20,269 nt of DNA from a virus: positions 1-20,269 of the IMG/VR virus record IMGVR_UViG_3300020463_000181; one strand, 5' to 3'. Positions 4,226 through 9,873 of the stretch are shown piece by piece. Position numbers and translations under genes: made by a program. The notes under the pieces are model-generated. The model saw nothing but the letters and a program-made list of their open reading frames with translations. It was not told where the DNA came from and did no database searches. Each line of letters starts with the position of its first letter. Positions within the stretch are counted from its first letter, which is position 1.

Positions 4226-4235
4226 TTATATATTT
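4226..4235 (-). promoter_or_regulatory. late-type promoter box AAATATATAA before the tape measure
   Basis: Minus-strand AAATATATAA is the NNATATATAA decamer found before five other late genes. It overlaps the stop codon of the chaperone extension (4237-4235). Only 6 nt separate it from the annotated ATG at 4219, so a transcript from here would be leaderless or would start translation at Met10 (4192), 33 nt downstream. Confidence 0.45.
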
Positions 4236-4594
4236 TAGAGTCTAGGCATGCTTATCTTAGGCATAGATGGAGCTTTATATTGGCTCATATTTTTCTTAGC
4301 CTGGTTTTGCATATTTCCTATATTGTATTTATCCTCGAGCTCACGATTATTTTTTGATTCTGAATCATTACGCTCTTTTACAATATCATTGAACATTTCA
4401 AGTGTATACTCATATTCATAATACGGAAGCATATCCAGCTCTGATGGCTGGAGATGCAACTTTTCTAAAAGGAGGACTCTAACTTTATAGAAGTTCAGAA
4501 GAGATATCTGAAATAACGAAAAGAGACTTAAGCCCGCCGGGAAAGGAAAGCGGAACTGTGATCTCCGCACCACAGCTTTGACAAGGATAACCAA
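4235..4594 (-). CDS. +1-frame extension of the tail assembly chaperone (GT-like), probably made by ribosomal frameshifting
   Basis: This frame overlaps the end of the gp26-like gene by 110 nt and is offset by +1 (equivalently -2). It has no convincing start of its own: the first possible codon is a TTG at 4594, and the first ATG (4432) lies after the upstream stop. Unlike shadow frames it reads as a protein, with FYKVRVLLLEKLHL followed by PSELDMLPYYEYEYTLEMF, a helical and acidic/aromatic pattern like tail assembly chaperone C-termini, and a Lys/Met/Pro-rich tail (KAPSMPKISMPRL). It lies between tube and tape measure, where many tailed phages express G and G-T proteins from one start by frameshifting. 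If the shift occurs at the CCC-G at 4541-4538, the fusion would be 417 residues (317 + 100). The alternatives are an independent short protein or a sequencing error joining one longer gene. Confidence 0.6.
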   Translation of the reverse strand: MVILVKAVVRRSQFRFPFPAGLSLFSLFQISLLNFYKVRVLLLEKLHLQPSELDMLPYYEYEYTLEMFNDIVKERNDSESKNNRELEDKYNIGNMQNQAKKNMSQYKAPSMPKISMPRL

Positions 4595-5489
4595 ATTCTG
4601 GCTTAACTCCTATTTTCATTTTTTCAATTAATCTAAATACTAATGTATACTTACCTGTTTCCCAACCTTGGAATGCAGTCACAGCAGAAAAGATTTCTCT
4701 ATCATTAAAACCTCTCCATTCACGTTGTAAATAAGGTAATATACCTAAGGATGATTTATCCCAAGGTTTATTTTCTTCTTCTCTTTTTCTTACCCAATCT
4801 GTAATAGATCTCATAACACCGATTGTAGGTGGTGCTAAAGTTAATTCACCATAACTTTTAGTAGGAATAGAATAACATTTGTTTTCTGCATCATAATAAC
4901 TTTCAACCATTTCATCAACTTCATTAAATTGAACATTTTCTGTTTTTAATTCCATTGATTCTTGAGTTTTACATGTAGATGTTGTACATTTCTTTTTACC
5001 TACTGGCATCATTAATTTTGCTTCACCTTTTTTAAATGTCAATTCACGGATTGATAAAATTAAGTAAATTCTGTCTTCTTCAAGTATATCTCTATAAGAT
5101 CCTCTTTGATTACCATACATTATTTTAGTACAGCCTACGATTATAGAATTCAACGCATCATCAACTTCTTTAATGTTAGTTTCATCCATCATAGAGAAGT
5201 CTCTAATTTCTCCAACTCTGGCAGCTCTAATATGTACTTCAAAATCTTCTCTATAAAATCTACCAGCAGATGGTAATTGACTTAAATCAATTTTAATATA
5301 TCCGGCTAAATCTTGTATTCTTTTTATTTCAGGATCATCTGGTGAAGTAAAGCCTCTACCCTTAGTAGGATCAACCTTTCCTAAGTTAGAAATTTTACCA
5401 TCATCATTCTTAACAACTTCGGCTTTTGTATCTTCAATACCTTCAGCTGCCTCAAATTCCTTTTTAATGTTTTCTTCGTGCTTACTCAT
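4485..5489 (-). CDS. T4 gp26-like baseplate hub / tail assembly protein (G-like chaperone)
   Basis: This 334-residue protein resembles the T4 base plate family of gp26. It has the LPSxGxFY motif (residues 72-79), then IRAARVGEIRDF and a DILEEDRIYLILSIREL segment (about 134-150). Two cysteine pairs, CTTSTC (C168, C173) and CQSC (C303, C306), could bind zinc. T4 gp26 is 208 residues, so this version has an extra acidic, probably disordered N-terminus (1-55) and an enlarged middle. Such proteins act in assembly of the hub and tube rather than as major structural parts. It starts 3 nt after the endonuclease stop and ends inside the overlapping +1 frame that leads to the tape measure. The C-terminal residues after P317 (GGLKSLF onward) are replaced if frameshifting occurs. 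Assignment is firm at family level; the exact T4 orthologue (gp26 versus gp51) is not settled. Confidence 0.72.
   Translation of the reverse strand: MSKHEENIKKEFEAAEGIEDTKAEVVKNDDGKISNLGKVDPTKGRGFTSPDDPEIKRIQDLAGYIKIDLSQLPSAGRFYREDFEVHIRAARVGEIRDFSMMDETNIKEVDDALNSIIVGCTKIMYGNQRGSYRDILEEDRIYLILSIRELTFKKGEAKLMMPVGKKKCTTSTCKTQESMELKTENVQFNEVDEMVESYYDAENKCYSIPTKSYGELTLAPPTIGVMRSITDWVRKREEENKPWDKSSLGILPYLQREWRGFNDREIFSAVTAFQGWETGKYTLVFRLIEKMKIGVKPEFGYPCQSCGAEITVPLSFPGGLKSLFVISDISSELL
4538..4541 (-). other. candidate programmed +1 frameshift site CCC-G
   Basis: Within the 122-nt window where both frames are open (4609-4488), the codons TTT CCC GGC GGG lie in the only GC-rich patch of an otherwise AT-rich gene. 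A proline tRNA on CCC (4541-4539) could re-pair with CCG one base on, giving SFP-AGLSLF instead of SFP-GGLKSL. CCGC and GCGG arms flank the site (4553-4534) and could form a small stem. Overlapping proline codons are known +1 shift sites in Listeria phage PSA. Other slips in the overlap (for example CTT TTC G at about 4526) are not excluded. Confidence 0.4.
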
Positions 5490-5492
5490 TTT

Positions 5493-5963
5493 TTACTTAA
5501 TTTTTGTTAATTGTTTTTCGAGTGAAGTTTCTTTTACAATATGTTCAACTATTATGTTTCTTACATATCGTGAAACTGGTATAGGTTTTGTACTATTCTC
5601 CATTGATTTTTGAATAATTATAGTATTCAAGTTATCTTCATCTTCTGGTGTTAATAGAACCTGTAATTTTTTTGTTAATCTTTTTTTCTGTGGAATCATT
5701 TCCTGGATACTTTCATTATATCCATATTTAGGGTTATCCGATTTGAACTTCTTTATCCAAAATTCAACTCTTTCCATAACAGATCCTAAAGATTCTCCAT
5801 TTTCAAAAGTCTCTAATGTTTCTTTTGTGAAGTTTAAGGTTCCAAAATCTTTAACGGCTCTTTTAATGTATTTACCGTTTCCAAAATAATTAGGGTTATC
5901 ATTAATGGAATATCCTACATAAACCTTTTTGTTTGCTAAGTTGTTTACTTTAAATATATTCAT
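5493..5963 (-). CDS. GIY-YIG homing endonuclease-like protein with ribbon-helix-helix tail
   Basis: Residues 1-80 match the GIY-YIG nuclease pattern of phage Seg-type enzymes: NIFKVNNLANKKVYVG (NIF and VYVG replace GIY and YIG), NYFGNGKYIKRAV (26-37), FTKETLETF, and VEFWI with the likely catalytic Glu67. Such enzymes cut DNA at a site lacking the gene and so spread it. Residues about 97-145 (KKLQVLLTPEDEDNL to SRYVRNIIVEHI) look like a CopG/Arc ribbon-helix-helix DNA-binding unit that would supply specificity. The gene is free-standing, inserted between the tube and the gp26-like gene, with a terminator before it and its own promoter box (5989-5998). The degenerate GIY triplet may reduce activity, but the nuclease core is otherwise intact. 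At 156 residues it is shorter than most homing enzymes. The ATG follows AAAAACCA with no Shine-Dalgarno. Confidence 0.72.
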   Translation of the reverse strand: MNIFKVNNLANKKVYVGYSINDNPNYFGNGKYIKRAVKDFGTLNFTKETLETFENGESLGSVMERVEFWIKKFKSDNPKYGYNESIQEMIPQKKRLTKKLQVLLTPEDEDNLNTIIIQKSMENSTKPIPVSRYVRNIIVEHIVKETSLEKQLTKIK

Positions 5964-6052: not shown

Positions 6053-6607
6053 TTATGCTCCTACGTTTTCTTCCAACCAATGGTCACAACGATAAGTCAT
6101 TGTTAATTCAGCTGGTTCAGGAGTTTCATAACTTAACTCATCCACAAAATCAGGTTGTGCAGTTGGGAATACATCTTTTAATGTAATCTTTCTGAAAATA
6201 TCACCTGCTCTGTTAAATTGAACAACGATCATACTTCCTACATAGTCTTTCTTTAATCCCATTTCACCTGTTAAAGGATCATAGATTAATTTGTACCAGT
6301 TACGGAAAGTATTGTACATGTAATTTTCATTTGCGTCATTTAGGTTCAACGTAAAGTTTAATGTTAGATCCACGAAAGTCTGTCCAGGCATACTTGCATA
6401 AGACCTATCAGCAAATTTGTATTTCTGAGCTACTGCGTCTACTGATGGGTTTAAGTTATTTAAACCTCCAATAGATTTAACCTGTTCTAAAATCAAACCT
6501 GTATCATCGCCTAATGGACTGAAGATTGTAACCTCAAACAAGTTTGGTTGAATAGGTTCAAATCTCTGACTGCTAGCCCTTGCTTGTGTATAATGTGGTA
6601 GTGGCAT
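6053..6607 (-). CDS. 19: tail tube protein, T4 gp19-like
   Basis: This 184-residue protein follows the sheath gene directly and has the size and composition of T4 gp19 (163 residues), the subunit of the inner tail tube through which DNA passes. Family-like features are the N-terminal QPNLFEVTIFSP strand, the FADRSYASMPGQTFVDLTLNF segment (about 65-87), NYMYNTFRNWYKLIYDPLTGE (about 95-115) and the C-terminal PAELTMTYRCDHWL. The roughly 20 extra residues are at the N-terminus and in the loop near LGDDTG. It has its own late-type promoter in the 38-nt gap after the sheath stop and a strong terminator behind it, as expected for a protein needed in high copy. The leader ends GATAAATTATG without a Shine-Dalgarno. 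Confidence 0.85.
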   Translation of the reverse strand: MPLPHYTQARASSQRFEPIQPNLFEVTIFSPLGDDTGLILEQVKSIGGLNNLNPSVDAVAQKYKFADRSYASMPGQTFVDLTLNFTLNLNDANENYMYNTFRNWYKLIYDPLTGEMGLKKDYVGSMIVVQFNRAGDIFRKITLKDVFPTAQPDFVDELSYETPEPAELTMTYRCDHWLEENVGA

Positions 6608-6645: not shown

Positions 6646-9600
6646 TTATTGGAAATTTCCTGCTTGGATTGCACCTGTTCTTAGAATTGTAGTTCTTTGA
6701 ACGAGTATTTCCATTCCTCTTACTGGCTCAATGAATGTATCAATGATACCAATGTTTTGGTCAATAACTTCTGGTGGGTTATTTGATTCATCCATTACAT
6801 TTCTGAAGTCAAATACACCATCATCGTTTTGAACCGTCGCGAGGAAGTTATCAGCAAGTGTTTTAATTTCCAACCTTGTTTGAGCAGTATTGAACTCAAA
6901 TAAGTAATTTTTTAGTATTGCTTCAATTCCATCTTGGATAAAGATTACAACCTCTCTACAGTTAATTGAACTTAAAGCAGATTTAGTTGTCTGCTGTGCA
7001 GTTTTATTTGCAAAGATTGTTGGCCCAGTTCCACTTTGGAATACAATCGGGTTCAATCCGAATGGCTCCAAGAATTCTCTGTCCTCTTTTCCAAGATTTA
7101 ATTCTAATCCTACAACACCGCTTCCTCCTACTACTCCTCTTCTAACTCCTGCAACTAATGACCACGGTAAAGCGTTTTCATATTTTGCAATAAAGTTATT
7201 AGAAACATAACATGCAGGTGGTACGTTTATATTCTTTCCTAAATCTCTTACCGTAATAAAAGGATAGTAGAATGCTCCAAAACTTGCACCTTGCGTTTGA
7301 GAAGGTAACGAGAATCTTACAGTTGGATTCTTCGTTAGATCTCCACCAGTAGAAATTAATCTAGATGAAAGAACTCCCGTAGCATCCAAGAATGAAGGAT
7401 CTGTACTATTTTTAAAGTCCTTAGAAGAAGGTGCATTAATTATTGCGAATGCATTCTTTCTAGTAGAACATAATGTAGTATAGATTGCTTTAGATCCACT
7501 TTCAATACCGTTTCCAAATGTATCTACGACATATCTGAAGTTTATTGTTTCTCTATCAGTTAATGCCTTAAATAAATTTGTACCGCTTAAAGTATCTGTT
7601 AAGATTTTATTTTGTTTATCATTACTTCCATCTGGTACATGTTTACTAGCATCTAATTTGAAACCATCTAATGTAAAGATGTTAAAGAAATCAACCCAAC
7701 GGTCAATAGGATAATACAATTCTACCTTTTTAACGCCACTTACAGTATCAACTAAGATTTCTGATTGTGTTGTTACAAGTATTGCAGTTTTATTTGCAGG
7801 AATTGTAGAATATGTAGAATTCGTTAAACCTCCAACTACTTCATTAATTCTTGTTAACCTTGATGGTACACTTCCTGTAGCATTTCCTTCAGAGTGTATT
7901 AAATAGTTTCCTACTAATACTGTATCAGCATCTTGATTATCACTTGCGATTAATACTTGGTTAGGTTTAAGTTGTACCTGAGTAGTAGAATCTGCTATAA
8001 TATCAATTGTTCTGTTTAAAGAACCTTTAAGTGTTTGAATACATAGTTCATTTGCTCCACCTAAAGTAGTTCCATCAGATTTTACAAATCTACCTGTTGG
8101 ATCATCAATAGTAAATTGTGATTGTAATGTTCTTACAGTATCAAATAGGTTATCAGCATAAGGAATTATCTGTACTGCTGGTAAATTATATGAAGGGTCA
8201 GTAATTGCAACCTTATTAACTGCTGTTGTTGGTGCACCTGTGTGGATGAATCCGTAATCTACAGCATTGAATACCAAGAAACTTTGAACAGTTACATTTG
8301 GATCACCTGTTGCAGAGTACTGAACTTCATCACCATCAGTAAGGGTACCGTTGGAGAATTGAGTATATAATGTACTTCCATAAGAAGCAATTATTCCAGC
8401 ATTTCCACCACTTGCATTTTCATTAACAACGAAGTCAAAATCAGCTTCATTTAAATAATTCAATGTTTGTCCTGCTCCAACTGTGAAAGAAGCAGCAGTT
8501 ACTCCACCAACTCCTGATACTACGATTGTTACAGTTCCACCTACAACGTTATGAGATATAACCGGTGCATATGTTCCTGCAGCAGTTTTAACATAAGAAC
8601 CTACTAAAGTTGCAGTATTGGCTCTCATCCCAAATAATGCATCATATAATGCATCTCCTGTAGTTCCGCCTGTTACTTGAATTTGTACATTACCACTTGT
8701 TAAATCAGTGGAAGTAGCAGTTTCAGTAGCACCTACAGTTACAGTAGTTCCTGATTCAACAGTTCTGTTGTAACATAAATCAGATACAATAGAAGATTCA
8801 TATGATAAGAAGTTAACTTCGTTTTGACCACTTATAGATTGTTGATTCTCTAAGTTATGACCAATTAAATCAATTCCTCCTTTAACACCATCTATTAAAA
8901 AGTCTCCGCTAAATAATTCTTCATTAACTGCTACAAATACTCCGGTTGTTGCAGTATCAGCATTAACAACTTTTTCTACGAAAAGGTTATTACCTACTAA
9001 GTCTACAAAGTTAGGTAGTAATGATGCAGTGTATTGAGCAATTAAATTAACTTCAGACTCATTAAAGAATTCTGCTAACATAGTATCAGTAGCATCTGAT
9101 GTAAATAATTTTCTCTTAATACCTTTAGTTTTATCAAAGTATGTTTGGAATGTTGGATCTGCTACGAACCTTTCATAAGGAGTTGCAGATGCAAAGTCTC
9201 CACCAAAGTTTCCTTCAATGACAAATATATCAACCATAAAGTCAGATATTAAACTGTCTTTATTTAGGAATCCTGGAACATTTGCAGCTCCATACCATTC
9301 TTCAGCCGTTACTTCAAGACCTGCAACATTTGCAGCGGCAGCCTTTCTAACGATTATAGATACAGGATTCTGTCCTAAATTTGTAAAATCTAAAAGATCA
9401 TTTGTTGTTCCAGCGCTAAAAGTATTACTTGCGCCAACATTCGTTAAGAATGATTCTGTTTCTGGGAAGAAGAATTTATCTCTGTTATAGAACTTTTGAT
9501 ATTCTGCTTGAGCCCCAGCATTTGCTTGTACTTCGGGAGTTGCAGCTGTGCCAAACTTGATAAAGTCAACTTTATCGTTTGCATCCAATGCTAAAAGATT

Positions 9601-9873
9601 AAGAGCTAAAATTGGTCCTCTTTCCAATGCTGCTAAACAGCTTCTGTGGAAAAAAGAATCCTTTCTCTCTAAGTTTCTATCAATATCACCATATACTTGT
9701 TTAAAGAATGCAGTATCTGGTACAAATACTGGTGTATTGAATGGTCCTTTTTTAGAGAAACCAACAATTAATCTAGTCTGGTTCGCAGGGATACTAACGA
9801 TCTGACTTTTGTCAAATTCAAAACGATATGTTCCTGCTGCCTTAAGCGAAGCGATTTTCGGATCTAGTGCCAT
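6646..9873 (-). CDS. 18: contractile tail sheath protein, T4 gp18-like, enlarged
   Basis: The 1075-residue product forms the contractile sheath around the tube. The N-terminus has the sheath pattern ANQTRLIVGFSKKGPFNTPV, then FKQVYGD and a CLAALERGPILALNLL segment. The C-terminal quarter (about 780-1075) has NVPPACYVSNNFIAKYENALPW, REVVIFIQDGIEAIL, TRLEIKTLADNFL and a final GMEILVQRTTILRTG strand, typical of the conserved sheath core that interlocks neighbouring subunits. T4 gp18 is 659 residues. The extra 400 lie mostly in the middle, where residues about 370-530 form a Thr/Gly/Val-rich low-charge segment like Ig-type or bacterial surface beta domains. These would project from the sheath. 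It follows the large terminase as in T4 (17-18-19) and has its own late-type promoter. Confidence 0.88.
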   Translation of the reverse strand: MALDPKIASLKAAGTYRFEFDKSQIVSIPANQTRLIVGFSKKGPFNTPVFVPDTAFFKQVYGDIDRNLERKDSFFHRSCLAALERGPILALNLLALDANDKVDFIKFGTAATPEVQANAGAQAEYQKFYNRDKFFFPETESFLTNVGASNTFSAGTTNDLLDFTNLGQNPVSIIVRKAAAANVAGLEVTAEEWYGAANVPGFLNKDSLISDFMVDIFVIEGNFGGDFASATPYERFVADPTFQTYFDKTKGIKRKLFTSDATDTMLAEFFNESEVNLIAQYTASLLPNFVDLVGNNLFVEKVVNADTATTGVFVAVNEELFSGDFLIDGVKGGIDLIGHNLENQQSISGQNEVNFLSYESSIVSDLCYNRTVESGTTVTVGATETATSTDLTSGNVQIQVTGGTTGDALYDALFGMRANTATLVGSYVKTAAGTYAPVISHNVVGGTVTIVVSGVGGVTAASFTVGAGQTLNYLNEADFDFVVNENASGGNAGIIASYGSTLYTQFSNGTLTDGDEVQYSATGDPNVTVQSFLVFNAVDYGFIHTGAPTTAVNKVAITDPSYNLPAVQIIPYADNLFDTVRTLQSQFTIDDPTGRFVKSDGTTLGGANELCIQTLKGSLNRTIDIIADSTTQVQLKPNQVLIASDNQDADTVLVGNYLIHSEGNATGSVPSRLTRINEVVGGLTNSTYSTIPANKTAILVTTQSEILVDTVSGVKKVELYYPIDRWVDFFNIFTLDGFKLDASKHVPDGSNDKQNKILTDTLSGTNLFKALTDRETINFRYVVDTFGNGIESGSKAIYTTLCSTRKNAFAIINAPSSKDFKNSTDPSFLDATGVLSSRLISTGGDLTKNPTVRFSLPSQTQGASFGAFYYPFITVRDLGKNINVPPACYVSNNFIAKYENALPWSLVAGVRRGVVGGSGVVGLELNLGKEDREFLEPFGLNPIVFQSGTGPTIFANKTAQQTTKSALSSINCREVVIFIQDGIEAILKNYLFEFNTAQTRLEIKTLADNFLATVQNDDGVFDFRNVMDESNNPPEVIDQNIGIIDTFIEPVRGMEILVQRTTILRTGAIQAGNFQ

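Follow-up and report, generated by a model that had tools for sequence, protein, structure and literature searches.

In phage lambda, a short tail assembly chaperone (gpG) and a frameshifted long form (gpGT) are encoded ahead of the tape measure gene. G and GT proteins of this class bind the tape measure protein, and virions lack them. Xu, Hendrix and Duda are said to have described this pair, and similar -1 frameshifts in other tail chaperones, in 2004. In T4 the chaperone pair is reportedly gp26 and gp51, and Vladimirov, Gautam and Davidson (2022, Virology 566:9-15) are said to have proposed -1 shifts in other T4-like groups. A two-product chaperone in T4-like phages, made by a -1 shift in some and from two genes in T4, is prior work. 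The gp26/gp51 chaperone work, as it is cited in two later papers (PMC10885494; PMC12846349), agrees with the frames described below. A 2016 review treated T4 as an exception to conserved G-T frameshifting, and also recorded that the -1 direction is not universal among tail chaperones: Mu uses -2 and HSTV-2 probably +1 (PMC5009743). We found no literature report of the +1 direction in the Bacteroidota and 'huge' phage clade considered here, the 2022 study being known to us through citations.

The locus lies in the window, by which we mean the whole 20,269-nt stretch analysed (positions 1 to 20,269 of IMG/VR virus record IMGVR_UViG_3300020463_000181). A sequence-only reading of this DNA had proposed a +1 (or -2) frameshift joining a gp26-like protein (here G) to a second frame (T). 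It added that the usual examples of such a mechanism lie outside the T4-like phages, a remark that is out of date given the gp26/gp51 pair and the -1 groups above. Strong support for the frameshift itself comes from conservation, from coding constraint and from stops that deprive T of a start in some relatives. Indeed, the comparative evidence is strong that a programmed +1 frameshift is real and yields a T4-like pair (TAC-N and TAC-NC).

The gene order is sheath, tube, homing endonuclease, G, T and a putative tape measure (Table 1), so two overlapping frames sit between the tail tube and tape measure genes. The open-frame overlap of G and T is about 122-125 nt, and G ends in TAA. The homing-endonuclease-like ORF (5493-5963, minus strand; phrog_314, E 1.4e-9) lies between the tail tube gene and G. 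The putative tape measure has zero Pfam or PHROG matches. The codons TTT CCC GGC GGG occupy 4544-4533 on the minus strand, with CCC-G at 4541-4538. Taking CCCG as one step gives a fusion in which P317 is followed by AGLSLF, and the junction reads ...PLSFPAGLSLF.... The ORFs, their overlap, the GC-rich codons, the CCC-G coordinates and the length of the fusion are all as first described. TTTCCCGG has one copy in the window compared with 0.05 expected from dinucleotide shuffles. CCC is rare (1 of 180 Pro codons in the other window genes) and the TTT-CCC codon pair is absent from the other genes of the window. Rfam gave zero matches in the window, and a search for homologues on plasmids found none. 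Transcriptional slippage was ruled out, the site being without a long A or T run.

Table 1. Features of the chaperone locus and its neighbours, in window coordinates.
Feature	Position	Strand	Basis
G / TAC-N, gp26-like tail assembly chaperone, 334 aa	4485..5489	-	Pfam PF12322, phrog_150, hhalign
T / TAC-C, +1-frame extension without its own start	4235..4540	-	coding constraint; hhalign to gp51-type C-terminal domain
G-T fusion (TAC-NC), 417 aa, predicted product of +1 shift	4235..5489	-	hhalign against gp51-type proteins
Shift site TTT CCC GG (0-frame codons TTT CCC GGC)	4537..4544	-	kept in 153/153
5' hairpin	4554..4577	-	stem arms 4577-4569 and 4562-4554; loop 4568-4563 (GCGGAG) with GGAG
Probable tape measure protein, 1068 aa	1013..4219	-	size and place directly after T
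Tail tube protein	6053..6607	-	phrog_3629 E 2e-8, phrog_45 E 8e-8
Tail sheath protein	6646..9873	-	PF17482

One clue to the identity of the two frames is that G scores 24.7 bits against PF12322 (T4_baseplate; cut-off 24.5) and also matches phrog_150 ('baseplate hub'). Comparison with T4-like gp26/gp51 by hhalign (Prob 91.1, P 1e-6) places G in the TAC-N family. T4 gp26 and gp51 both match PF12322, gp51 having an extra C-terminal part. In a profile-profile comparison, T aligns with this gp51-type C-terminal domain (hhalign Prob 94.1, P 1.3e-7) and so falls with TAC-C. A single-sequence search of T against phrog_634 gave no match at E<=1. The fusion matches T4-like gp51-type proteins (Prob 97.7, P 2.1e-12) more strongly than G alone (1e-6). 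Judged by these profiles, the two frames are a T4-like tail assembly chaperone, consisting of a gp26-like TAC-N and a gp51-like C-terminal extension.

Other T4-like phages share these homologous N- and C-terminal parts and likewise encode two products beside the tape measure gene. However, the route differs. T lies in the -1 frame in cyanophages S-PM2 and P-SSM2, and in HTVC008M, KVP40 and phiM12, after T TTT TTC or T TTT TTT. The -1 relation, with T TTT TTC (or TTTTTTT) just before the gp26 stop, recurs in 70 of 71 further loci (L206-L285). Four of the loci (L206, L236, L247 and L281) have no ATG directly past the stop, and there T appears to require a -1 shift. The pair is encoded by two genes in T4 and CP220; of the T4 genes, one is already fused. 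In contrast, the window has a +1 relation at TTT-CCC with a hairpin upstream. The resemblance to lambda gpG/gpGT is one of layout. Lambda differs in slip sequence, in the position of the stimulator and in direction, the frame relation here being +1 and not the -1 that is usual for such chaperones.

Two IMG/VR scans found 155 other loci encoding both parts. The usable set comprises the window and 152 IMG/VR loci (n=153; 76 distinct in the region, with some loci sharing a contig). The second frame is +1 relative to G in 153/153, and each sequence (76 distinct) has an in-frame TTTCCCGG whose distance to the end of G is exactly 60 nt. This arrangement is kept well beyond chance, although the relatives share ancestry and the counts are not independent events. 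At the codon level, TTT and CCC are each present in 76/76, and ACG in 66/66 where the preceding residue is Thr. The sequence-only reading had suggested looking for homologues with the same overlap and CCC-G, and the site is kept throughout the set.

Could the two frames be a pseudogene, or one gene broken by an indel from sequencing or assembly? The window is a single metagenome contig, and one relative does have a deletion at the site. However, the same frame relation holds in 153/153 and also in isolates with sequenced genomes, PAU and pT24 among them, and both frames are under coding constraint. The indel reading is refuted for the clade by this comparison, and its chance of applying here is negligible. 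The contig with the deletion (L067:4925-4935) lacks about 14 nt exactly at the GC-rich shift site, perhaps through an assembly fault.

A second alternative is that T is a separate gene with its own start, either a GTG in the zinc-finger codons or a later ATG, and that there is no frameshift. A T-frame GTG at about -29/-26 is present in many relatives, and in one distant locus T does have its own ATG (see below). Against this, a T-frame TAA or TGA ends 3 nt before TTT in 38/153, with no ATG, GTG or TTG ahead of the site. For these 38, therefore, the only way into T is from G, at the site or past it. The first T-frame ATG lies 73 to 256 nt past the site across the 153, and T is constrained as protein well upstream of it. 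This was examined from the G stop to +148 in the 112 loci (53 distinct) whose first T-frame ATG is at least 148 nt past the site. Single-base codon differences in the T frame were 9466 synonymous to 1001 non-synonymous, compared with 650:8485 and 1379:7872 in the other two frames, which argues that T is translated upstream of any ATG. T thus resembles the second frame of gpG/gpGT-type chaperones, without its own start and entered near the end of G. An indel and an independent start were the two outcomes named at the outset as fatal to the frameshift, and for this clade the 153/153 relation, the 38 stops and the coding test exclude both. A stand-alone T in the window is very improbable, although a late internal start may operate in addition to the frameshift. 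Synonymous codon identity relative to expectation is about 1.0-1.3 across G and rises to 1.4-1.9 from -45 to +60, as expected where overlapping coding and RNA signals coincide.

The arrangement extends well beyond the window clade. Homologues found by tblastn include Sphingomonas phage PAU, Tenacibaculum phages pT24 and PTm1/5, Chryseobacterium MA9V-1/2, Flavobacterium MaF61, Prevotella Lak phages and uncultured phages of 462-735 kb. In all of them G is followed by a T-like sequence in the +1 frame. The site is TTT CCC N in PAU, pT24, LR756501, LR756502 and LR745206, TTT CAA G in LR756500 and Lak, and TTT CGA in MaF61. In the huge phages LR756500 and LR756501 a T-frame stop stands just ahead of TTT, with no earlier start. 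A second clade (n=84) was assembled from 80 relatives obtained by a scan with LR745206 (a 634-kb phage) and four relatives of LR756500. Its site is TTTCCC-A/G in 80/84 and TTTCCTG in 4/84, and it lies 66 or 60 nt upstream of where G ends. A slippery sequence at a fixed place, as in gpG/gpGT-type systems, is therefore found in both clades. The distant alignment (A1) was nowhere conserved enough to be used for scanning a collection. TTT-C is absent at the usual place in MA9V-1/2, PTm1 (L165) and LR756504, where T is still +1. MA9V (L162/L372) has TTT CTA further downstream, and LR756504 (L167) has CCC ATC. In one 45% identical relative (L081), T stands as an independent ORF whose own ATG directly follows the G stop, and the +1 frame is closed (L081:4940-5020). 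This relative has lost the GGAGG element and reads CCA in place of CCC. By its sequence, this locus is a natural negative control.

The explanation that very probably holds as a whole, on this comparative evidence, is that one mRNA gives both T4-like chaperones through a +1 shift at TTT-CCC, with a hairpin probably stimulating. Most ribosomes would read G to its TAA and make TAC-N, the gp26 counterpart. A minority would pause as the rare CCC enters the A site while peptidyl-tRNAPhe is on UUU. The tRNAPhe would then re-pair one base forward on UUC, and translation in the +1 frame would give G-T (TAC-NC), the gp51 counterpart. By analogy with lambda G/GT, G might form a coat on the tape measure protein, with the T part recruiting tail tube subunits.

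Which tRNA slips is a finer question. The sequence-only reading had named CCC-G as a +1 candidate; at that site peptidyl-tRNAPro would move from CCC to CCG. The CCC and TTT readings give an identical protein. In favour of CCC-G, the window clade has CCC without exception, and Listeria phages are known to shift +1 at CCC_U. However, TTT-C persists in relatives that have CCT (4 loci), CAA (LR756500, Lak) or CGA (MaF61) instead of CCC. What the site variants share is TTT-C, which favours a UUU to UUC slip of tRNAPhe at a slow A-site codon. Peptidyl-tRNAPhe slippage before the rare CCC thus appears likelier, and slippage on CCC-G, although possible, unlikely. Precedent comes from influenza A PA-X, where UUU_C slippage with a slow A-site codon has been argued (Firth 2012, PMC3498833). 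PA-X shares the in-frame UUU_C P-site slip followed by a rarely used codon. This likeness is functional, with no homology: the gene and host are unrelated, and PA-X has no known stimulator, whereas a 5' hairpin is likely here. The CCC_U sites of Listeria PSA, A118 and A500 share a +1 shift at a rare Pro CCC in a low-GC phage (PMC5009743). They differ in serving a major tail or capsid protein and not a chaperone, and in having a 3' pseudoknot or stop codon as stimulator. Finally, a -2 slip would reach the same final frame as +1, and Mu uses -2. Nevertheless, tRNAPhe and tRNAPro would be unable to re-pair two bases back at ACG/TCC TTT CCC, and the product would have one extra residue. Of the two directions first proposed, +1 stands and -2 is scarcely credible.

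The hairpin, which was missed in the earlier reading, lies about 10-12 nt upstream of the shift site and carries GGAG in its loop. The codons that encode this element are near-invariant (GAG 74/74, GTC 74/74), although the rest of the window favours GAA and GTT/GTA. The window hairpin folds at -10.4 kcal/mol (p 0.013 against synonymous recoding). Across the clade the mean z against synonymous recoding is -3.3 (42 distinct sequences), compared with 0.1 to -1.8 in control windows. The wobble base at -13 tracks the other arm: T occurs with TGCAGT in 11/11, C with TGCGGT in 44/46 and A with TGTGGT/C in 16/16. In the second clade GTGTGG/CCACAC becomes GTGCGG/CCGCAC. Because of shared ancestry, this covariation represents few independent events. 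The coding constraint of the zinc-finger codons also overlaps the hairpin. Lak, L078 and LR756500 have a weak hairpin or none, and its register varies between subgroups. RNAalifold over the whole region gave nothing better than shuffled columns, and no conserved structure 3' of the site among pseudoknot-free folds. The difference in register would explain why the hairpin is seen only in per-sequence recoding tests. Taken together, the hairpin is probably a stimulator of the forward shift.

How might it act? The bacterial prfB gene (release factor 2) also combines a +1 shift with an SD-like GGAG(G) upstream. However, prfB has its element 3 nt from the site, whereas here it ends 17-18 nt before TTT within a hairpin loop, and the A-site codon is CCC and not a stop. 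A further contrast is that hosts of relatives here are Bacteroidota, where SD pairing is reportedly blocked: Bacteroidia ribosomes are reported not to recognise the SD, with bS21, bS18 and bS6 sequestering the anti-SD (PMC9976891). Perhaps the loop is a ribosome sensor whose pairing with the anti-SD is confined to ribosomes with altered or missing bS21, so that ribosome type tunes the chaperone ratio, and hence tail assembly. This idea is quite improbable. On a more modest reading, the novelty would lie in a 5' hairpin that stimulates +1 shifting from behind the ribosome.

Most phages known to use such frameshifts slip backwards. A broad T4-like clade, including huge phages and Lak relatives and with several members infecting Bacteroidota, would instead arrive at both products through a +1 shift. 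Known frameshift sites would be extended by a UUU_C +1 site that has a 5' hairpin, in hosts whose ribosomes do not normally use Shine-Dalgarno pairing. It also follows that T is missed in these genomes or mis-annotated as a separate small ORF. Lak phages recode TAG, and one of them (Lak-B5, L166) has an in-frame TAG in the T part, 112 nt past the site. Judging from the reading frame, this TAG must be read as an amino acid, which would place frameshift and recoding on one message.
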